Shown: positions 2,825-42,549 of the stretch, one piece after another
Layout of the letters: the number at the start of each line of letters is the position of its first letter
How positions within the stretch are numbered: the first letter of the stretch is position 1
NCBI RefSeq assembly: GCF_008016535.1
Contig: NZ_SAXY01000061.1
Coordinates: 1-42,676, forward strand
Reading direction: 5' to 3'
From: Brachyspira pilosicoli
Lineage (GTDB): Bacteria > Spirochaetota > Brachyspiria > Brachyspirales > Brachyspiraceae
DNA length: 42,676 nucleotides
Made by a program: the position numbers and the translations under genes
The notes under the pieces: model-generated
What the model was told of the DNA's origin: nothing
What the model saw: the letters and a program-made list of their open reading frames with translations, nothing else
The model's database searches: none

Positions 2825-3544
2825 TCAGTCTATTTGTTTTGTCTTCGCTATAACTAATTCTCTTACGCATATATCTTGAGGCATATTATAAACGAATTCT
2901 ATGCAATTAACTATATCAGAAGCATTTAAACCATTTCCTATACTCTTTTTCCATTCAGCATAATCAGCTTTGATATTTTTATCTGTTGTATGCTCTAAAA
3001 GATTAGTTTCTACAACTCCGGGTGCTAATACTATAACTCTTACATTTTTATCGGCTACTTCTTATCTAATACTTTCAGTTATGGCATGCACAGCAAATTT
3101 ACTTCCGCAATACACTCCATGATTTTTAAATGTTTTTATTCCTGCTATTGAACTTATATTTATAATAGTGCCTTCATTTCTTTTTATCATATCTGGAAGT
3201 ATTATATTTGTAGTTGTTAGTATTCCATTTATATTAATATCTATCATGTTTTTCCATTCTTCATAGCTTTGTTTATCAATATTTCCAATAAGCATTACTC
3301 CTGCACAGTTTATAAGCAAATCAGTTTTTCCATATTTATCTTCAGCCATTTCTACTGCTGCTCTTATTTCTTCTAAATTTGTAACATCTGCTTTTACACT
3401 TATTGAATCTTTTAAATTTAAATTATCCATTATTTCTTTGCGTCTTGATATTAAAAGTGTAGGGTGTCTATTTGCTGAAAACTTTTTTGCTGTTTCCATT
3501 CCTATTCCAGAGCTTGCCCCCGTAATAACCACTAATTTTTTCAT
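2825..3544 (-). pseudogene. Short-chain dehydrogenase/reductase interrupted by an in-frame TAA
   Basis: The first 160 residues hold the Rossmann motif TGASSGIG (9-16), NCAG (79-82), catalytic Ser131/132 and the Y145-x3-K149 pair. A TAA at 3062-3064 stops the frame after ESIR. The same frame then continues without shift for 78 codons to TGA at 2825, giving the expected SDR C-terminus (V-R-V-I-V-L-A-P-G-V-V-E-T-N). A single GAA to TAA change would explain it. The intact product (about 239 aa) would resemble YdfG-like NADP-dependent 3-hydroxy acid dehydrogenases. The truncated product would lack the C-terminal substrate-binding part. AAGGAG ribosome site upstream. Whether this is a real mutation or a sequencing error cannot be told from one sequence. 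Confidence 0.85.
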
Positions 3545-10191: not shown

Positions 10192-10906
10192 GGGGCTGTC
10201 CTAGATAACTAAAAAAGCTCCTTTTTTGCTAAATTATATATAATTTCCAACTGTTTGTCAACTTTTGTATTATTAAATCTAAATTGACATTCTTTAATAA
10301 ATAAGTGAAAATGTTCTTTTGGTATTCCATTAAATTTACGAAGATGTCTTTTCGCTTGATTCCAAAAATTCTCTATACCATTAATATGGTTCTTTTCTTC
10401 AGCAAACTTTTCACTATGATTAATTCTAAAGTGCTTAAATTCTGATACATCTAATACATCATAACTATGATAATAATCTGAATAAACTATACTATCAGGC
10501 TGTACTTTTTGCCTAATAATTGGTATTAAAGTGCTTATTTTAGTATTATTTATCATTTTTACATATACTTTTCCTCCTCTTTTTAACAAACCAAACACTG
10601 GTATTTTATATGCAAGCTCCTCTTCCTCTTTTTCCTTTTCTTTTACCGCCAAAATAACTTTCATCTGCTTCTATTTCTCCATTAAAAATTTCTTCTTCTT
10701 TTTCTTTCTCATATTCAAATATTAATTCTCGTAAATGATGATAATATAATATTGCTGTTTTACGATTAATTCCAATAAGAGCAGAGGCAGTCCTTGCTGT
10801 AGTTCCTGCTACAAAATGCTCTATTAATTTAAATTGTTTTTCTTCACTTAATTTACTGCGTTTCATACTTAAATTTTAACAAATTTAAGTTATCTAGGAC
10901 AGCCCC
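10192..10906 (-). mobile_element. IS1595-like insertion sequence (715 bp)
   Basis: Bounded by perfect 19-bp inverted repeats (GGGGCTGTCCTAGATAACT at 10192-10210 and its complement at 10888-10906). It carries a single frameshifted transposase. The 8 bases on either side (TTTATTTT and ATAAATAA) do not match, although this family makes 8-bp duplications. The right edge cuts directly into a dehydrogenase gene. Together these suggest a deletion next to the element after insertion. Confidence 0.92.
10209..10866 (-). pseudogene. IS1595 family transposase with a single-base frameshift
   Basis: The first frame (10866 to 10606, 86 codons) has a helix-turn-helix-like N-terminus and the first catalytic Asp in ADESYFGGKRKG. 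The second frame (to 10209) resumes with KIPVFGLLKRGGKV, the second Asp in YSDYYHSYD and the last acidic residue in HINGIENFW. The frames join if one T is removed from the GCTTGC near 10614, restoring RGRGAAYKIPVFG. The total length is one more than a multiple of three, as expected for one inserted base. The element is therefore probably unable to move by itself unless the ribosome slips. Confidence 0.88.
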
Positions 10907-11404
10907 ATAAATAATGCTTGTTATTCAAATATGGGCTTATTAAGTAATTGCAGCTATGATGACTTTTTAGAGATTTTTAAAGTATCAGTTGCATCTGCTT
11001 ATCAAATAACAAAAAACTTAATAAACAATTTTAATAAAAATGCATGCATAATAAATATATCTTCCACAAGAGCTTTTATGTCGCAAAAAGACAGTGAAAG
11101 CTATAGTGCTTCAAAAGGTGCAATTATGGCTCTTACTCATTCTATGGCCATTAGCTTATCGCATAAAGTTCGCGTAAACTCTATTAGCCCGGGTTGGATA
11201 AACACCTCTAATGAATCTAACTTTAGTAAAGAAGATATACTTCAGCATCCATCTGCTAAAATAGGCGAAGTTTCAGACATAGCTACTACCGCTTGGTTTA
11301 TTTGCAATAACAATTTTATAAATGCTCAAAATATTACAGTAGACGGCGGCATGACAAAATTAATGATATATCATAATGATGAAAATTGGAGTTTAAGTAT
11401 TTAA
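10907..11404 (+). pseudogene. Short-chain dehydrogenase, front end removed at the IS1595 edge
   Basis: The frame is open right from the last IS base and reads I-N-N-A-C, the NNAG-like motif normally near residue 80-90 of an SDR, so the Rossmann TGxxxGIG part is missing. The rest is intact: NISSTRA with catalytic Ser, YSASK (Tyr and Lys), SPGWINT, and the VDGGM C-terminal motif of classical SDRs. An ATG at 10931 could start a 157-residue protein, but it would lack the NAD(P)-binding part and no good ribosome site precedes it. No matching N-terminal half is found to the left of the IS, so that piece was deleted and not just separated. Confidence 0.88.
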
Positions 11405-31555: not shown

Positions 31556-32215
31556 CTAATTAAATAAATTTTTTAAAAAAACTATAAGTTCATTTAATAC
31601 TTTTGAATCTAAATAATCATTAAATTCCTGAAATAATCCGCCTATAGTATTTCTTTTTTTACATTTTACAGATATAAATGCAAGTATTTTAGATTTTAAT
31701 ATATGAGCTTCATTATCTCCTTGATTAATATAATTATTGGCACAATCAAAAAAATTATTAACACATTCATTATATAAATCTTTATCTTTTTCTAAAATAA
31801 TATCTTCAACTAAACATTCTAAACAGCCAGAAGTTTTATCATTAGTCTTTGTTGTTAGAAATAAGCCTTTATTATCATCATAGTATATATTTTGGTTTGC
31901 ATTATATTCAAGTTTTATAATATCATTAAAAATATTAAATCTTTTTTGAGCATTATCTTCAGCATCTACTAAAATACCGAGTTTTTCTATATTATTATAA
32001 TTAGGGCTTTTTATAAATGAAGTAATGTTGTTTTTATTATCAACTTCATTAATAGGTATAATATGAACAGTATCATTATCTTCTATAAAAGATTTATCAT
32101 ATTTTCCTGTTATATAGTTTAATCCTAATTTTTTACCAATTAAAAGAGAGCATAAATCTCTTTCATCATTACCCTCAACAAGAAGCACTTTTTTAGCCAT
32201 AGGATTATTGAGCAT
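31556..32215 (-). CDS. DUF3226 TOPRIM-like protein, partner of the AAA ATPase
   Basis: 219 residues. The N-terminus KVLLVEGNDERDLC has the TOPRIM glutamate (E14), and GILVDAEDN (80-88) supplies the acidic pair (D84, D87). The CLECLVEDIIL segment (131-141) and the helical C-terminus fit DUF3226. The start is four bases after the ATPase stop, with GAGG inside the end of that gene, so the two are coupled. TOPRIM proteins paired with OLD-type ATPases act as nucleases or toxins in phage-defence systems such as OLD, Gabija and PARIS. A defence role is inferred from architecture and from the neighbouring restriction genes. Confidence 0.8.
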   Translation of the reverse strand: MLNNPMAKKVLLVEGNDERDLCSLLIGKKLGLNYITGKYDKSFIEDNDTVHIIPINEVDNKNNITSFIKSPNYNNIEKLGILVDAEDNAQKRFNIFNDIIKLEYNANQNIYYDDNKGLFLTTKTNDKTSGCLECLVEDIILEKDKDLYNECVNNFFDCANNYINQGDNEAHILKSKILAFISVKCKKRNTIGGLFQEFNDYLDSKVLNELIVFLKNLFN

Positions 32216-32219
32216 TATT

Positions 32220-33278
32220 TTATCTTACCTCCCAATTATCCATAGCATTATTTAATTCTTCACTATTGTATATAACAGGGTAATATTTTTCTTCTTTGTC
32301 AGCTTCTATCCTTATACCTTGAATATCATCATTTGAATTATATTTATTTTTTACTTCGTTATAAACATCATTAAAAGCCTTTATGCATTCATAAGAATGA
32401 GTGGTGGCAAAAAGCTGGACATTATTTGTATAGCATACTTTAAATAAAGAAATCCATAAATTACTCAATGAACTGTAATGAAAACCGTTATCAATTTCAT
32501 CAATAAGTAAAACTCCATCTGGTACGAATAAAGTATTTACAATGTAATTAAATATTTTTAATATTCCATTTCCTAATGCATTTAGAGATAGATATCTATT
32601 AAGTCCAATATCTGCCTCGCATATTTTATTAGATGATATTCTAATTGACTGTAAATTTGGTATTATAGGTTTTAAACAATCTACAACTATTTTATCCATT
32701 TTTAGATTTTGAATTTTATCAAATCCTTCTATAATATTAATTTTAAATCTATTTTCCTTATAATTAGAATCATTAAAAAAAGAAAAATGAAATAATGGAT
32801 AATTTACAATTGATGATAGTATTGTTTTATTATTAAGTATGACATTATTATTAATAGACATAAAACTATTATCTAGTTTTCTATTACTATTTATAAGTAA
32901 TGGAAGTTTTATGGTTTTTCCATCATTATTTTTTACTTGATAGTAAATGCCATCTAATGGAGCAATTTCTAATGATTCTATAGGATATATATTTAATTCT
33001 TTCTTTGTAGTTTTTATATTTATTGGTTTACTATAATCAAAATTATGAAATATTAATTCCAAATTATTATTTAAAGGTATATCTCTCTGCAAAAAACTAG
33101 CTATAATAGTATTTGAGTTAAACATATCAGAATATATATGTAATGCCTCCAAAAAATTGGTTTTTCCTACGCTGTTTTTCCCAAATATTAAATTAAATCT
33201 TTTAAAACTATCTACTTTAAAGTCCTTGAAACATTTAAAATTACTTATGCTTATATTTGGTATTTGAATATTATCCAT
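32220..33278 (-). CDS. AAA ATPase of the OLD/AAA_15 type, putative phage-defence sensor
   Basis: 352 residues from the ATG at 33278 (MDNIQIPNISISNFKCFKDF, the usual start of this class). The frame continues upstream into the IS end, but that part is low-complexity and not counted. Walker A GKNSVGKT is 33-40, the ABC-type signature SLNALGNG is about 231-238, Walker B LLIDEID ends at 260-263, and the H-loop ATTHSYE has His294. It is an SMC/ABC-like ATPase without the fused TOPRIM domain of OLD proteins; that role is filled by the next gene. The promoter region was altered by the IS481-like element 100 bases upstream. Confidence 0.85.
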   Translation of the reverse strand: MDNIQIPNISISNFKCFKDFKVDSFKRFNLIFGKNSVGKTNFLEALHIYSDMFNSNTIIASFLQRDIPLNNNLELIFHNFDYSKPINIKTTKKELNIYPIESLEIAPLDGIYYQVKNNDGKTIKLPLLINSNRKLDNSFMSINNNVILNNKTILSSIVNYPLFHFSFFNDSNYKENRFKINIIEGFDKIQNLKMDKIVVDCLKPIIPNLQSIRISSNKICEADIGLNRYLSLNALGNGILKIFNYIVNTLFVPDGVLLIDEIDNGFHYSSLSNLWISLFKVCYTNNVQLFATTHSYECIKAFNDVYNEVKNKYNSNDDIQGIRIEADKEEKYYPVIYNSEELNNAMDNWEVR

Positions 33279-33377
33279 AAAAAACCCACATCTCTTTATA
33301 TAAAATAAATAATATATCAATAAACATTTATTGTCAAAATATTTAAATATATATAAATAATAAAAATCTTCAATAAA

Positions 33378-34412
33378 TGTCATGGAGCCATAGATATTGT
33401 ACTTTTACTTGCTATAATATTTTTGATTCTTTCTTTGATTGTAATATACAATAAAGAAGAAATCAATCTTTGATTGTTATAAAAATGTGTATATTCTTTT
33501 AATTTTTCTCTCAATAATTCTACTGTGATATTTTTATTTAATCGTGAATAAAATTCTCTTTCGTCTATGCCGTGTACTCTTTCTACTACGCCATTGTATC
33601 TTGGTGTTGCTATAGGAATATATCTCCTCTCTAATTTATTTTTTAAGCAGTATTCATCAAAAATATTTATTTTAGGAGTATTAATACAGCGATAAGTATA
33701 TTCTATACCATTGTCCGTTTGTATAGCCTGTATCTTAAAAGGTGAAGTTTTTAAGACATATTTTAAGAAAGATAAAGCACTAGAAGGTGTTTTATCTTCA
33801 TAGATTTCTCTCCAACTATAACGAGTAGCTAAATCTACAGCAGTGAACTGATAAACTCTTTTTCTGCCTAATTTGATATATTTAGTGTCTATTTGAACTA
33901 TTTTGCCTTCTTTTTGTATTTTAGAGACAAATTTACGCTTATCATATCGCTTCTTTTTCTTTTTTATTTTGTATCTCCAAAGATTATTTCTTTTTAGTAC
34001 ATTCTCTATAGCTGTAACCCCTATCTTAATGCCTTCACGGTTCAAATATGCTTTAATATAATGTTTTCCCCTATACTCTTCAGTATAGAGTTTAATAATT
34101 AAATTAATAGCTTTTTGGTTATTAAAGATATTTGGGGAAGTTTTTGGTCTAGTGCTAAAATTGGCGACAGTTCCAGTGTCTTTATATTTTTTAAGCCAAG
34201 CATAAAAAGTAGATTTGGGTATTTCTTCTATCTTTAAAAATCTTTTAATATTTTTAGTTTCTAATGCTTCATCCACTATAAATAATTTAAATTCTGTGCT
34301 ATAATCTTTTTTCATAGTAGTATCCTTTATTTATTTTCTATATCAAAATATTATAACAAGGATACTGCTTTTTTTATACTAAAAAATGTCCAATATCTCA
34401 TACTCCTAAACA
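33378..34412 (-). mobile_element. IS481-like insertion sequence, copy 2 (1035 bp)
   Basis: Left end TGTCATGGAGCCATAGATATTG and right end complementary to TGTTTAGGAGTGTGAGATATTG form the imperfect inverted repeats. The two flanks do not match each other. The right flank (34413-34427) instead equals, in reverse complement, the right flank of copy 3 (40809-40823). Confidence 0.93.
33380..34315 (-). CDS. IS481-like transposase, copy 2
   Basis: 311 residues with an intact frame. An N-terminal helix-turn-helix (about 10-55, STFYAWLKKYKDTG) and integrase core with Asp143 (QIDTKY), Asp201 (QTDNGIEY) and Glu245 (NGVVERVHG), so all catalytic residues are present. The stop codon lies in the terminal inverted repeat, two bases inside the element end. 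This is the most likely active member of its subfamily in the window. Copy 3 differs mainly in the first 45 residues and by the 8-residue insertion. Confidence 0.93.
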   Translation of the reverse strand: MKKDYSTEFKLFIVDEALETKNIKRFLKIEEIPKSTFYAWLKKYKDTGTVANFSTRPKTSPNIFNNQKAINLIIKLYTEEYRGKHYIKAYLNREGIKIGVTAIENVLKRNNLWRYKIKKKKKRYDKRKFVSKIQKEGKIVQIDTKYIKLGRKRVYQFTAVDLATRYSWREIYEDKTPSSALSFLKYVLKTSPFKIQAIQTDNGIEYTYRCINTPKINIFDEYCLKNKLERRYIPIATPRYNGVVERVHGIDEREFYSRLNKNITVELLREKLKEYTHFYNNQRLISSLLYITIKERIKNIIASKSTISMAP

Positions 34413-34427: not shown

Positions 34428-34485
34428 CATATTGTTTAATATAAATATTATAGTACAATATAAAATATATGTTTTAGGTAATAAT

Positions 34486-35601
34486 ATGAAAGAATTTAGA
34501 ACTATAGAAATAGAAAATATTTATAATGATTCAGATATTAGTGCAGGAATAGAATCATTAAAAACAGCAGGAATAGAAACAATATTAAATAATAATAGCA
34601 TTATTTTAAATTTTGATATTGTAGATTTAAAATATCTTGAAACTATAAATAACAACAAATTAATAAAAAAAATAATAGAAGAATTATATAAAATTCGTTC
34701 ATTTTCAAGCAGTAATGGAAAAATAGTTTTTAAAAGCTTTAACAAAGATAAAAAAGTAAAAGACAAAGAAGAAAATAAGAAAAAAAGATTAGCTTATGAA
34801 TATTATAAAAAAGATTTTCAAAAAGAAAATAATGAAATAGATGAATCATTCATTAATAATATACATTGTTCTGATTCATTAGAATTTCTGCAAAAACTTC
34901 CTAATAATTCTATAGATATAGTATTAACTTCTCCGCCATATAATTTTGGTATTAGTTACGAAAACACAAACGATGTAAATATATGGGAAGATTATTTTGA
35001 TAAACTATTTTGTATATTTAAAGAATGCATAAGAATATTAAAAGATAGCGGAAGAATTATTATAAATGTGCAACCTATGTTTTCAGATTATATACCTACA
35101 CATCATTTAATAAGTAATTTCTTTATAAATCAAGGTATGATATGGAAAGGGGAAATTATATGGGAAAAAAATAATTATAATTGTAAATATTGTACTTGGG
35201 GAAGCTGGAATAGTCCTTCATCTCCATATTTAAAATATTCTTGGGAATTTATTGAAATATTTTGTAAAAATTCTTTAAAAAAAGAAGGAGATAAAAATAA
35301 TATAGATATAGTAGCAGATGAATTTAAAAAATGGGTATATTCAAAATGGTCAATAGCACCTGAAAGAAATATGAAAAAATACAATCATGATGCTATGTTT
35401 CCAGAAGAATTAGTTAGAAGAGCATTAAAACTTTTTTCATATCAAAATGATATTGTATTAGATCCGTTTAATGGTGCTGGCACTACTACAAAAATAGCAA
35501 AAGAACTAAATAGAAGATTTATAGGTATTGATATATCAGAAGAATATTGCAAAATAGCTAATGATAGGTTAAAAGAAGCAAACAATTTATTTAATAATTA
35601 G
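34486..35601 (+). CDS. DNA methyltransferase, beta-class, probably N4-cytosine
   Basis: 371 residues from the ATG at 34486 (AGGT upstream). Catalytic motif IV TSPPYNF (148-154) precedes the SAM-binding motif DPFNGAGTTT (326-335), the order of beta-class enzymes; SPPY is typical of N4-cytosine and some N6-adenine methylases. The FIGIDISEEYC stretch is the following strand and loop. The first 120 residues are a Lys/Asn-rich extension not usual for the family. The restriction gene starts 10 bases later, so the two form a type II system that marks and cuts the same site. The target sequence cannot be read from the protein. Confidence 0.9.
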   Translation: MKEFRTIEIENIYNDSDISAGIESLKTAGIETILNNNSIILNFDIVDLKYLETINNNKLIKKIIEELYKIRSFSSSNGKIVFKSFNKDKKVKDKEENKKKRLAYEYYKKDFQKENNEIDESFINNIHCSDSLEFLQKLPNNSIDIVLTSPPYNFGISYENTNDVNIWEDYFDKLFCIFKECIRILKDSGRIIINVQPMFSDYIPTHHLISNFFINQGMIWKGEIIWEKNNYNCKYCTWGSWNSPSSPYLKYSWEFIEIFCKNSLKKEGDKNNIDIVADEFKKWVYSKWSIAPERNMKKYNHDAMFPEELVRRALKLFSYQNDIVLDPFNGAGTTTKIAKELNRRFIGIDISEEYCKIANDRLKEANNLFNN

Positions 35602-35610
35602 GAGTATAAT

Positions 35611-36255
35611 ATGTCATCTATAGAAGAACTTATTAATGACTATAATAGTGTTGTAAAAGTAGTTAATAAAAATGCTGCAGAAGATGAGGATAGAGCTTAT
35701 GGCGGAGTAATAAGATCAGTTAAAGGAAAATTACAAGAACATATCACTGAAGAAATAATAAGAATAGCTTGGAATAATTTAAAAGGTGATATGAATAGAT
35801 TAGAAATTAATTCAAAAAAAATAAAACTTCCAATAAAAGAAAATTATATAAAATCTATAAAAAATAAAGAAGTTAGAGATTATATATTAAAAAATAAAGA
35901 CCATTATTATTATGGATTAAGTGTTGATAAACATGTATTTATAGATAATAATTTTGTTATTGGAATAGAATGTAAGGCATACACAGAAAATGCTATGATG
36001 AAACGTATATTAATTGATTTTCATTTATTAAAAACTCTTTATCCAAATATATCTTGTTATTTATTTCAATTAGAAAGTCAATTAGGAGGAGATTATTCAC
36101 AATTACCTGACATCGTTTATGGTTCTAAATCTACACATTCTATAATGAGCTATTTTGAAAATGTAGAATTAAATATATATACATTTTTAAAAGGTGAAAG
36201 AGATATAAATAATCCAATTCACAAAAATTTTAAACCATTAAAAAAAATGTATTAG
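35611..36255 (+). CDS. Type II restriction endonuclease, frame broken at an A8 tract near the end
   Basis: 214 residues with AGGAG before the ATG, 10 bases after the methylase. A PD-(D/E)xK nuclease core is seen: D106 (SVDKHVF) and E120-C-K122 (FVIGIECKAY) with a following helix (MKRILIDFHLLKT). The frame ends TAG right after a run of eight A (36240-36247). In the next frame the sequence continues NVLEKAVKLLENDLKQYL and stops with TAA at 36300-36302, so one more A would give a protein of about 233 residues. The core is complete in either version, so activity may be kept. Specificity unknown. Confidence 0.82.
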   Translation: MSSIEELINDYNSVVKVVNKNAAEDEDRAYGGVIRSVKGKLQEHITEEIIRIAWNNLKGDMNRLEINSKKIKLPIKENYIKSIKNKEVRDYILKNKDHYYYGLSVDKHVFIDNNFVIGIECKAYTENAMMKRILIDFHLLKTLYPNISCYLFQLESQLGGDYSQLPDIVYGSKSTHSIMSYFENVELNIYTFLKGERDINNPIHKNFKPLKKMY

Positions 36256-36344
36256 AAAAAGCTGTCAAATTATTAGAAAATGATTTAAAACAGTATTTAT
36301 AATTTTGAATAAATATAATAAAAATTTTTAAGTTAGTAATTTTT

Positions 36345-36518: not shown

Positions 36519-36590
36519 ATGCAGTCCTTTTGCTTCTTTGGGTCACCAAAAGAAGTGGGGTGCGGGGCAAAGCCCTGCAAATATTTAAAA
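36519..36590. repeat. Second GC-rich intergenic block
   Basis: CTTCTTTGGGTCACCAAAAGAAG (about 36534-36556) is a self-complementary hairpin with CTTCTTT and AAAGAAG-like arms, followed by GGGGTGCGGGGCAAAGCCCTGCA with GGGC/GCCC pairing. It stands out sharply from the AT-rich surroundings. The remainder of the 36303-36649 gap shows nothing else. Confidence 0.6.
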
Positions 36591-36649
36591 TTTAAGTTAT
36601 TAGAAAATAAAAAATTTTTTAGTATATATATTATATTTAGGTGCTGCTT

Positions 36650-38179
36650 ATGAAAAACATGCTATTAACTTTTTTATTTACTTTTTTCTTTATAGTAAAC
36701 TGTAGTGCAAATGAAAAGGAGTTGGGAGAAAATATTATTGACCCTAATAAACTCACACCATTAGGTACTATAATATTAAATTCTTATGATATAGCTCCAT
36801 TATCTGCTTCTTATGTTATAAGCAATACTAATAATTACCCAATAACAGTAACTGTTAAAGGGCTATACAATGAACCTGATATAATTCATACCTATCCTGC
36901 TAACTACGGAAAAGAGTTTGAAATACATGGGCTTTTCTCAGAAGCTACTAATACAATTATTATCAATGATGCAGGAAGAGAGATTATAGAAAATCATTAT
37001 ATAAAAAAGATTTATCATGATGATGTGTACATTGATTCAAAATATACAGTAGAGATTAATAAACTTACTAACGATGACGGAAATAATCCTGATTTATATT
37101 TTATTCAATATTTTAATGGTTGGTATCCTACTGCTACTATAGGTATATCAAAAAATGGTTATGTGAGATATTTTATTAAAGGAGTTACTGCTTCAAAAAT
37201 CGCTATAGAGGGCAATAAGTTTTTAATATATCCTATGTATGAAGGAAAAATTCATAATATGCTTGGAAAGGAACTTGTAAAATATCCGAGCAATTCTCAT
37301 CATGACACTATAAAAAAAGATGATAATTATATTTATTTATCTGCAAGTAAATGGGGCGGAAATGATGAGATTACAGAGATTGACTTTTATGGAAATATAG
37401 TTAGAAAGATGAGTTTTGCGTCTATTATAAGAGATATAGTGCTTCCTAATAACGATAAAAATGAAATAAGAATATTAAACAGAATTGTGTTTGATAAAGA
37501 TAATATATTTGCAGATGAAAACAGAGAGCAGAAATCTATAGACTGGTTTCATGCTAATTCGCTTGTTTATGATAAAGAAACTGATATACTTTATATATCT
37601 TCAAGGAATTTAGGAGTATTTGCAATTGACTACAGTGATTGGAAATTGATATGATGGTTTGCAGATGAAACCTTAAACACAAGAACAGGAAATGCATATG
37701 GTCAGATTCCTTATAAAGATAGCTTAAAAGATTTGCCTTCATTAGATGCTTATAGAGTAAAAGGAGATGCACTCACAGACGGACCAAAAAATCAGCATGC
37801 ATTAATACTTTTTCCAAATGGTAATTTAGGAATGCTTGATAATCAGGGAGATGCTAACAGAAACTCTAAAGGCTCAAGATATGTAGAATATAGTATTACA
37901 GGTGAGCATGGTTCTTATACAGCAATTAAAACAGATGAGTTTAGAGAGGCTTCGCTTTATTCAAGAATTAATTCAGATGCTGACATAAAAGGAAATAACT
38001 TGCTTTTAACTTATGGTACTATAAGAACTGTATTGGAAGTGGATAAACAAACAAAAGAAGTTTTATTTAAAAATAAGTTTAATATGCCGAAATCTGAATT
38101 ATATTATAGAGCAGACAAATTGCCTTTATATTATGAAGAGGGAAGAGAGTACTTTGAAGACGCTAATATAAAGAATTGA
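36650..38179 (+). pseudogene. Arylsulfotransferase (AssT-like) with one in-frame TGA
   Basis: The whole frame from the ATG at 36650 (AGG upstream) to 38179 is in one phase, about 508 codons, broken only by TGA at 37652-37654 after YSDWKLI. TGG to TGA would explain it, since the expected residue there is Trp (KLI-W-WFAD). The protein has a signal peptide (ending NCSANE), an N-terminal beta domain, and beta-propeller motifs of PAPS-independent arylsulfate sulfotransferases: IDWFHANSLVYD with one active His, SSRNLG, then LTDGPKNQHAL with the second His after the stop. Periplasmic enzyme moving sulfate between phenols. The truncated part alone would be inactive. Confidence 0.85.
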
Positions 38180-38220
38180 TTGTTGATATATATTTGAAAT
38201 TTTTAGATTAGTGATTTTTT

Positions 38221-39750: not shown

Positions 39751-40808
39751 TGTTTAGGAGTGTGAGATATTGGACATTTTTTAGTATAAAAAAGCAGTAT
39801 CCCTGTTATAATATTTTGATATAGAAAACAAATAAAGGATACTACTATGAAAAAAGATTATAGCACAGAATTTAAATTATTTATAGTGGATGAAGCATTA
39901 AAAACTAAAAATATTAAAAGATTTTTAAAGATGGAAAGAATAAATAAATCCACTTTTTATACTTGGATTAAGAAATATAAAGACACTGGAACTGTCGCCA
40001 ATTTTAGCACTAGACCAAAAACTTCCCCAAATATCTTTAATAATCAAAAAGCTATTAATTTAATTATTGAACTCTATACTAAAGAATATCGAGGTAAGCA
40101 TTATATTAAAGCATATTTAAATCGTGAAGGCATTAAGATAGGGGTTACAGCTATAGAGAATGTACTAAAAAGAAATAATCTTTGGAGATACAAAATAAAA
40201 AAGAAAAAGAAGCGATATGATAAACGAAAATTTGTCTCTAAAATACAAAAAGAAGGCAAAATAGTTCAAATAGACACTAAATATATCAAATTAGGCAGAA
40301 AAAGAGTTTATCAATTCACAGCTGTAGATTTAGCTACTCGCTATAGTTGGAGGCAAATCTATGAGGATAAAACACCTTATAGTGCTTTATCTTTCTTAAA
40401 ATATGTCTTAAAAACTTCACCTTTTAAGATACAGGCTATACAAACAGCGACCGAAGGAAGTGCCTGTGGTAACAATGGTATAGAATATACTTATCGCTGT
40501 ATTAATACTCCTAAAATCAATATTTTTGATGAATACTGCTTAAAAAATAAATTAGAGAGGAGATATATTCCTGTAGCTACACCAAGATACAATGGTGTAG
40601 TAGAAAGAGTACACGGCATAGACGAAAGAGAATTTTATTCACGATTAAATAAAAATATCACAGTAGAATTATTAAGAGAAAAATTAAAAGAATATACACA
40701 TTTTTATAACAATCAAAGATTGATTTCTTCGTTAGGTTATATTACAATCAAAGAAAGAATCAAAAATATTATAGCAAGTAAAAGTACAATATCTATGGCT
40801 CCATGACA
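39751..40808 (+). mobile_element. IS481-like insertion sequence, copy 3 (1058 bp)
   Basis: Begins TGTTTAGGAGTGTGAGATATTGG and ends in the complement of TGTCATGGAGCC; same subfamily as copy 2 in the opposite orientation. It is about 24 bases longer because of an internal insertion in the transposase. Left flank (ending TATACTTGAT) and right flank differ. Confidence 0.93.
39847..40806 (+). CDS. IS481-like transposase, copy 3, second catalytic Asp replaced by an insertion
   Basis: 319 residues, frame open. Asp143 (QIDTKY) and the final Glu are present, but where copy 2 has QTDNGIEY this copy has QTATEGSACGNNGIEY: 27 bases (40446-40472) replace three, a net gain of 8 residues, and the second Asp of the DDE triad is gone. 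The enzyme should therefore be inactive. The inserted DNA shares 15 exact bases with the intergenic repeat at 36382-36396. Compared with copy 2 the first 45 residues also differ at several positions. Confidence 0.92.
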   Translation: MKKDYSTEFKLFIVDEALKTKNIKRFLKMERINKSTFYTWIKKYKDTGTVANFSTRPKTSPNIFNNQKAINLIIELYTKEYRGKHYIKAYLNREGIKIGVTAIENVLKRNNLWRYKIKKKKKRYDKRKFVSKIQKEGKIVQIDTKYIKLGRKRVYQFTAVDLATRYSWRQIYEDKTPYSALSFLKYVLKTSPFKIQAIQTATEGSACGNNGIEYTYRCINTPKINIFDEYCLKNKLERRYIPVATPRYNGVVERVHGIDEREFYSRLNKNITVELLREKLKEYTHFYNNQRLISSLGYITIKERIKNIIASKSTISMAP

Positions 40809-40920: not shown

Positions 40921-40997
40921 TGCCTATTATCATACAAAATAAAGAAGTTATTTCATAATTTAAATATAAACTAAAATTTATATATACTTACAATTTT

Positions 40998-41981
40998 TTA
41001 AGGCACATTTATATTTGAAAGAAGCTCTTCTATAATCATATCGCTGCTCACATTCTCAGCTTGTGCCTCGTAACTTACACTAATTCTATGTCTTAAAACC
41101 TCATAAGCAACTGCCCTAATATCTTCCGGTATCACAAAACCTCTGCCGTTCATCATAGCATTAGCCTTAGCTGCTTTTGTAAGATATATACCAGCCCTAG
41201 GAGAAGCACCATAATCAATATACTCCTCTTTAAGTTTATATTCTATTGGGTTTCTTGTTGCATCTATTATATTAACTATATAATCTAACAACTTATCTTC
41301 TATATATATCTGTTTAGCTAATATTCTTAATTTGTTTATTGTTTCTATTGTTGTAATAGGTTTTACTTCCTCTGGTTTTGAAGAAGACATATTTTTTATT
41401 ATAGTTTTCTCTTCGCTTTTTAGAGGGTATTTAACAATTACCTTTAGCATAAATCTATCAACCTGTGCCTCTGGTAAAGGATAAGTACCTTCTTGCTCTA
41501 TTGGGTTTTGAGTAGCTAATACTAAAAACACTTCTGGAAGTTTATATGTTTTATCGCCTATTGTAACTTGATGTTCTTCCATAGCCTCAAGTAAAGCAGA
41601 TTGCACTTTAGCAGGTGAACGGTTTATCTCGTCAGCAAGTATGATGTTGGAAAATATTGGACCTTGCTTTGGTAAGAAAACTGAATTCTTAATATCATAT
41701 ATCTCTGTACCTATAATATCTGCAGGAAGCAAATCTGGCGTAAACTGTATTCTTTTAAAAGTTGCATCTATTGTAGAAGCTAAAGTTTTAACTGTAAGCG
41801 TTTTTGCAAGTCCCGGTACTCCTTCAAGCAATACATGCCCATCACATATTATGCCAAGCAAAAGCTTATCTATCATATTCTCTTGCCCAACTATCACTTT
41901 TTTAATTTCATCTTTTACTGCATTCACAACATCTAATGCCGCATTGGCTGCTTCTGAAATAGCCTGTAAATCTTTAGTCAT
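40998..41981 (-). CDS. MoxR family AAA+ ATPase
   Basis: 327 residues. Walker A GVPGLAKT (54-61), Walker B IILADEIN (113-120), sensor 1 ATQNP (156-160, Asn159), and the conserved FTPDLLPADIIGTEIYD and PLPEAQVDRF segments. MoxR proteins are chaperone-like ATPases that help mature metal- or VWA-domain proteins. It lies 12 bases after the BatD-like gene, forming a Bat-type operon; the VWA (BatA/BatB) and DUF58 partners are not in the window. Family sure; client protein unknown. Confidence 0.95.
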   Translation of the reverse strand: MTKDLQAISEAANAALDVVNAVKDEIKKVIVGQENMIDKLLLGIICDGHVLLEGVPGLAKTLTVKTLASTIDATFKRIQFTPDLLPADIIGTEIYDIKNSVFLPKQGPIFSNIILADEINRSPAKVQSALLEAMEEHQVTIGDKTYKLPEVFLVLATQNPIEQEGTYPLPEAQVDRFMLKVIVKYPLKSEEKTIIKNMSSSKPEEVKPITTIETINKLRILAKQIYIEDKLLDYIVNIIDATRNPIEYKLKEEYIDYGASPRAGIYLTKAAKANAMMNGRGFVIPEDIRAVAYEVLRHRISVSYEAQAENVSSDMIIEELLSNINVP

Positions 41982-41993
41982 AAACTCTCCATT

Positions 41994-42491
41994 TTAATTT
42001 TTATGCTGTTTTTTTATAAATTTATATAATAAGTATACTATAAGAACTATAAGTACCCACTGCCCAATCATTATAATTAAAAATGAATTGCCGAAAACTC
42101 TAATGTTATATTCACTTAAAGGCTCTTCATTTGGTATTAAATTGTTTCCCCTCTCAAGTTCATAATAACGAGCTTCTAATTCTGGTATTTTTAATTTGCC
42201 TTTATTAATTGGCTTTAATGTATATATTATTTTGTATATAGTTTTAATATCAGTATTTTCTTTATCTATTGTTTCACTTTCTATTCTTTTGTTTATTATC
42301 TCAAAATCGCTTATAGAGTTTTCGTCTAAACCTTCAGCCTTAAAACTATTAGCATCTCCTGTAAAAGTTAAAGTATATTTAATATTCTGCCATTTATATA
42401 TACTCTTTCTATTAACCTTACCTTCAACAGAAACCATAGAAAAAACTGTAGTATTAATAATCATTATAAGCAAAATAATATAATATCTCAT
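41994..42491 (-). CDS. BatD-like membrane-anchored protein
   Basis: 165 residues. A signal peptide (1-18) is followed by one beta-sandwich (VEGKVNRKSIYKWQNIKYTLTFTGDANSF ... YTLKPINKGKLKIPELEARYYE) and a single C-terminal membrane helix (about 133-157) with a short basic tail. The strand pattern with LKPINKGKLKIPE is the repeat unit of BatD proteins, but only one such domain is present, whereas BatD usually has several. Placement just before moxR supports the Bat-operon assignment. It may present clients to the MoxR complex from the membrane outer face. Confidence 0.65.
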   Translation of the reverse strand: MRYYIILLIMIINTTVFSMVSVEGKVNRKSIYKWQNIKYTLTFTGDANSFKAEGLDENSISDFEIINKRIESETIDKENTDIKTIYKIIYTLKPINKGKLKIPELEARYYELERGNNLIPNEEPLSEYNIRVFGNSFLIIMIGQWVLIVLIVYLLYKFIKKQHKN

Positions 42492-42549
42492 AGCTTTTTA
42501 GATTATAATAAAAAACAAAAAAGTCAACCTAATTAAGTGTATTATATAG

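Follow-up and report, generated by a model that had tools for sequence, protein, structure and literature searches.

The DNA analysed here (hereafter the window) is a stretch of 42,676 nucleotides from Brachyspira pilosicoli with a GC content of 28%, and its close relatives belong to a single genus. It carries a type II restriction–modification (R-M) cassette, in which a gene for a DNA methyltransferase is directly followed by a gene for a restriction endonuclease whose reading frame is cut short, and two copies of a transposase gene lie to either side (Table 1). The methyltransferase is given from its ATG codon, and the open reading frame list gives a TTG start at 34432. The 3' end of the endonuclease gene reads CCA TTA AAA AAA ATG TAT TAG, so that the protein ends in PLKKMY and the stop lies two codons past a run of eight adenines (A8), while the -1 frame entered at 36246 runs for 18 codons before its own stop; one additional A would fuse the two frames, as the original prediction had described. 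Another A8 run within the same gene, at 35814, is in frame. Such runs are not a statistical anomaly of the window, since eight A runs of at least 8 were counted against 10.3 expected, and seven T runs of 8 against 13.7, under a first-order Markov model. For a contingency locus, an A8 tract is at the low end of the length range and is present here at chance frequency; by these sequence counts, the run is at chance level, and it is the homology of the tail that exceeds chance.

Table 1. Features of the R-M cassette and its surroundings in the window.
Feature	Position	Strand	Basis or remark
Left-hand transposase copy, with rve integrase core	33380..34315	-	PF00665
Type II R-M cassette common to G012, 96.4% nucleotide identity	34416..36303	+	blastn block
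DNA methyltransferase (N6_N4_Mtase, TSPPY motif), 371 aa from ATG, open frame	34486..35601	+	PF01555, E 4.9e-43
Truncated type II restriction endonuclease, PD-(D/E)XK fold, 214 aa	35611..36255	+	PADLOC PDLC03499 REase_II, fold matches
A8 run at the frame change	36240..36247	+	in phase, A_AAA_AAA
Detached C-terminal helix NVLEKAVKLLENDLKQYL and TAA (36300-36302)	36246..36302	+	-1 frame
Premature TAG stop of the endonuclease	36253..36255	+	
Second, inverted copy of the same transposase	39847..40806	+	

The endonuclease belongs to the curated PADLOC family PDLC03499 REase_II (E 4.9e-108) and has no match in Pfam or NCBIfam; a comparison with PDB sequences returned a best E of 0.22 with the single sequence and nothing with the profile. 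Three residues (Asp106, Glu120, and Lys122) are invariant in all 12 aligned sequences and lie upstream of the break, and they form a D...E-x-K arrangement that we take to be the active-site motif of the PD-(D/E)XK nucleases. The structure predicted for an intact homologue (L005; mean pLDDT 85.6, pTM 0.83) is closest to BbvCI B2 (Foldseek E 4.3e-5; VIA Z 13.5, rmsd 4.8 over 205 residues), followed by NucC, SgrAI, PspGI, and Bse634I. The solved folds nearest to the intact homologue are thus those of BbvCI (B subunit), SgrAI, Bse634I, Cfr10I, and NgoMIV; the likeness to the BbvCI group is one of fold only, with 12% identity and no match at the sequence level. In the L005 model, the last helix (residues 223–240, pLDDT 93–95) is among the most confidently predicted parts of the protein. 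The model of the truncated protein from the window reaches a pLDDT of 78.4 and a pTM of 0.74 and matches a PD-(D/E)XK fold at an E of only 2.1e-3; its first 40 residues have a pLDDT of 49–64, compared with 70–86 for L005 residues 11–50, and its last 24 residues one of 53–57. This drop in confidence is only suggestive, as the two models are of different sequences and the comparison is uncontrolled. From the predicted structures, the endonuclease is a PD-(D/E)XK nuclease with an intact catalytic core and a missing last structural element.

Homologues were sought in 41 whole genomes, genome_contigs (84,980 species), IMG/VR, plasmids, phages, and 392 genomes of the phylum. The tail is in frame with the codons just upstream of it in all 13 other copies that have a readable 3' end, which are the intact G022 gene (L002), L005–L015, and a remnant in G006 (L059). 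L016 was left out because a contig end cuts it before the C-terminus, G092 (profile positions 118–211) and G372 (a stop-containing fragment of 39 codons) were set aside, and seven further loci are duplicates, of G012/L007 (L003, L004, L018, and L057) or of G022 (L019, L058, and L077). A fourteenth copy, G059, matches positions 6–240 of the 241 in the PADLOC profile; the window protein matches positions 6–223, with the last 18 out of frame, and is therefore a broken member of the family, without the complete protein that includes the C-terminal helix. The original prediction had named homologues that all end at KKMY as the outcome contrary to it; none of them ends there, and the helix that it proposed looking for in homologous enzymes is found at all 13 readable 3' ends. 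What had been described as a helix-like tail is a genuine C-terminal helix by homology and in the L005 model, and the truncation at the A tract is likewise borne out as a frameshift relative to the homologues.

The position of the tail is kept in every copy across several phyla, and its sequence is weakly conserved, with no alignment column after Lys208 reaching 90%. Because 13 of 13 copies encode the tail, because the helix is confidently predicted, and because the block shared with G012 ends just past the stop of the tail, the tail belongs to the enzyme proper and the window holds a one-base deletion; an optional extension was rejected, as the tail shares the frame of the preceding codons in all relatives. 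The system resembles other pairs of PDLC03499 REase_II and N6_N4_Mtase in its conserved D-ECK core and in the upstream position of the methyltransferase, which is found in nine copies (those of the window's genome, G012, G022, G006, L005, L006, L011, L012, and L014), and differs from them in a frameshift that removes the final 18 positions of the 241-position profile. The L010 methyltransferase gene runs convergently to that of the endonuclease, and none was found within the flank examined near the endonucleases of L008, L013, and L016. No relatives of the endonuclease were found in the viral contigs of IMG/VR or in plasmids. Hypothetical proteins of Synechococcus phages S-CAM1 and S-CAM3 (H1–H11) match 84% of the endonuclease at 26–27% identity (E 6e-8 to 3e-7), and these proteins, from 11 cyanophage records and without annotation, are possibly distant relatives.

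The nature of the deletion emerges from the nearest copy, that of G012 (L007), in which the site reads TTA GAA AAA AAT GTA, as opposed to TTA AAA AAA ATG TAT with one base fewer in the window; an A-G-A7 sequence in the former corresponds to A8 in the latter. The window sequence is most simply derived by the loss of the G, which is a single step, as a G-to-A substitution followed by the loss of an A requires two. Since the loss of one G yields A8, and since an A run of eight or longer occurs at this site in no other copy of the homologue alignment, the deletion most likely produced the A8 run and was not brought about by it.

The methyltransferase matches PADLOC MTase_II (E 4.8e-69), directly adjoins the endonuclease, and is 97.3% identical in amino acid sequence to its G012 counterpart, with a frame that is open throughout. 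Over 1889 aligned columns, the window and G012 cassettes differ by 66 mismatches and 2 gaps, and each gap shifts the frame of the endonuclease gene; the methyltransferase gene has none. The dN/dS values between the two are low in both genes (0.012/0.105 for the methyltransferase; 0.021/0.138 and 0.026/0.309 for the two parts of the endonuclease), suggesting that the endonuclease lesions in the window and in G012 are probably recent. Among 26 genomes of the genus, all have some match to the cassette, and long matches of at least 79%, counted by eye from the table, occur only in G000 (the window's own genome), G012, G022, and G006. The endonuclease is intact in just one of these four, G022 (230 aa). 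A different one-base deletion breaks the G012 gene, at GGAGGA near codon 159, and in G006 most of the gene has been deleted, leaving about 15 of its first codons and 23 of its last. The lesions of the other Brachyspira copies lie elsewhere in the gene and outside long homopolymers. The methyltransferase frame is open in four of four copies as far as covered, and in G006 the gene is kept, split over two contigs. The sample is small, with three of four copies broken, and two of the genomes are drafts: G006, of 990 contigs, and G012, of 160 contigs and titled as a metagenome-assembled genome (MAG). Outside the genus, the endonuclease frame of L009 (2-643; from an Elusimicrobiota MAG) is lost at about codons 80–100 of the locus frame, where stops occur, and is then regained.

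Different lesions at separate places in two further Brachyspira copies give a pattern of decay, and, together with the open methyltransferase frames, they favour repeated post-transfer loss of the endonuclease over a switch. The reading we favour, at a probability of about 0.62, is that a mobile type II R-M cassette has recently suffered a one-base deletion in its endonuclease gene, as one of several independent losses of restriction in which methylation is kept. Compared with all its relatives, the gene has lost one base near the 3' end, its frame stops after KKMY, and the conserved last helix lies out of frame. This helix probably packs against the N-terminal helices, and an enzyme lacking it would be inactive or unstable, so that the strain would methylate its own DNA and restrict little or not at all. 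As Asp106, Glu120, and Lys122 precede the break, the truncated endonuclease may possibly retain some activity. Such a history would mean that sister species independently lose restriction shortly after acquiring the cassette and retain an open methyltransferase frame. A comparable case is the eroded R-M repertoire of Mycoplasma agalactiae (PMC9465063), where, in the portion of the paper available, frameshift, erosion, and horizontal transfer have likewise shaped R-M content; the lesions described there fall mostly in methyltransferases, in contrast to the endonuclease lesion of the window.

The deletion could in principle be suppressed during expression, since TT[A AAA AAA]ATG has the canonical phase of a -1 slippery heptamer, and either -1 slippage of the ribosome or an extra A added to the mRNA by RNA polymerase leads straight into NVLEKAV..., so that a minority of full-length enzyme would provide weak restriction. 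The accessible text of PMC1088944 cites an A8 run in human apoB that gives about one-tenth full-length product and also infers that slippage at eight A is productive in some bacterial IS elements; in that of PMC3017870, frameshifted poly-A genes of Blochmannia are presented as possible cases of such correction. The Blochmannia genes share with the endonuclease an AT-rich genome, an indel at an A tract, and otherwise good conservation; however, the tracts discussed in that excerpt are of at least 9 (one of 11), as opposed to the A8 of the window, which is not common to lineages. The in-phase A_AAA_AAA heptamer is also a common sequence, occurring 16 times in the 39 main open reading frames of the window and 79 times in the 104 genes compared below, and the arrangement is found in no relative, all of which read the tail in frame. 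No notable structure follows the site (z -0.80, with 46 of 200 shuffles as stable; pseudoknots fall outside this test), on which basis a programmed frameshift with a downstream stem was rejected. The usual length at which selection against transcriptional slippage is seen is put at nine A in the same part of PMC1088944, and, as far as the available text of that paper and of PMC5009743 goes, prior work makes rescue possible and not likely. A leaky rescue is thus unlikely here. It is less likely still that the deletion is self-suppressing in the stronger sense, having created the very A_AAA_AAA that undoes it and that sets a small dose of full-length enzyme through ribosomal or RNA polymerase slippage. 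Were this the case, cutting would be dialled down and not off while methylation stayed full, possibly easing establishment after transfer, and slippage would be a simple way of keeping a dangerous nuclease at low dose. No restriction gene rescued by slippage was found in the titles and abstract openings of the open-licence literature searched.

A sequencing or assembly error, by which the true genome would have one base more and an intact gene, has to be weighed because the window's genome is a draft of 113 contigs. Single-base miscalls in homopolymers are a known artefact. The frames of at least 120 aa in G015 (n = 709) were compared with 398 kb of the window's genome, in which 104 of them have an orthologue: 99 of these are whole, 1 is a frameshift candidate, and 4 contain a stop, and in the reverse comparison 105 of 105 are whole (frames covered over less than 80%, 4 in the first comparison and 2 in the second, are not in these counts). 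The frameshift candidate is a start-site artefact caused by an upstream start before a flagellin-like gene; two of the stops fall early in the match (index 2 and 11), and the other two are real and inside the window. As these 104 orthologues contain 42 A/T runs of at least 8 and no real frameshift, the assembly does not generally miscall such runs, and pervasive homopolymer errors were rejected. The in-frame A8 elsewhere in the endonuclease gene argues in the same direction, and an error confined to this one site is quite improbable.

The original prediction had held that slippage in the run could switch between a short and a long enzyme; as phase variation, this would be an interconversion of A8 and A9 by replication slippage. 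The A8 run does exist and a single A does join the frames, and an A9 product might work, as L009 has a lysine at the position of the lost glutamate (LKKE). Phase-variable R-M genes are known in Helicobacter pylori, JHP1272 being one example, and the likeness lies in the homopolymer frameshift within an R-M gene; yet the excerpt of PMC3936762 that describes them names tracts of more than 8 bp as the likely switchers. The window differs from the H. pylori case in that its tract is not recurrent, no variation in length is seen, the endonuclease is encoded by a separate gene, and the methyltransferase is open. Against a switch stand the lack of an A8 or longer tract at the site in any homologue, the sufficiency of a single G deletion, the position of the other Brachyspira lesions away from long homopolymers, and the absence of frameshifts relative to G015 at the 42 A/T runs. 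This part of the earlier claim is accordingly left unsupported, with very little probability attached to it, and the locus serves as a warning that an A tract at a frameshift does not by itself make a switch. Phase variation of R-M in Brachyspira was not found in the open-licence literature searched. Least probable of all is that the 214-aa form works fully and the helix is dispensable, for even though every recognisable catalytic residue is retained and the tail varies in sequence, every copy, across several phyla, has it at the same position, and few parts of the intact L005 model are folded with as much confidence.

Between the window and G012, core-gene identity is 87% (one gene, 3756 bases), well below the 96.4% of the cassette, suggesting that the R-M pair has moved between species and was probably acquired horizontally. 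At 36303, one base past the stop of the tail, the shared block gives way to native intergenic sequence. The two transposase copies are inverted relative to each other and 93.6% identical in nucleotides over 1070 bp, and the segment 36283-39751 is inverted relative to G015, where its placement is the same as in G007 and G019. In these three genomes, MoxR-like genes (40989-42548 in the window; assigned by reading the protein and not by a family search) adjoin an arylsulfotransferase gene (36564-38220 in the window). The window itself has the segment between the two in inverted orientation, flanked by the transposase copies. The insertion of the cassette and an inversion between the two transposase copies would account for this arrangement.

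Several further features of the window may be recorded. Beside the cassette and the transposase lies a pair of genes for an AAA ATPase and a DUF3226 protein (31556-33383, minus strand). The ATPase has a match to AbiLi (E 7.9e-51), and the two together match PDC-M38A/M38B, a candidate defence pair in PADLOC. The arylsulfotransferase gene (PF05935; 36641-38179) is split by an in-frame TGA at 37652-37654 on the plus strand, where G007 and G001 have TGG, and the corresponding frames of G015, G019, and G001 run through. On the minus strand, a short-chain dehydrogenase of 239 codons is cut off at codon 161 by a TAA (3062-3064), where G015 has GAA; counting the arylsulfotransferase and the endonuclease, the window holds three fresh lesions. 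Finally, a 249-aa frame of G007, G015, and G019 is matched at 10898-11401 (plus strand) over residues 82–249 only, possibly as the result of a 5' truncation or a rearrangement.
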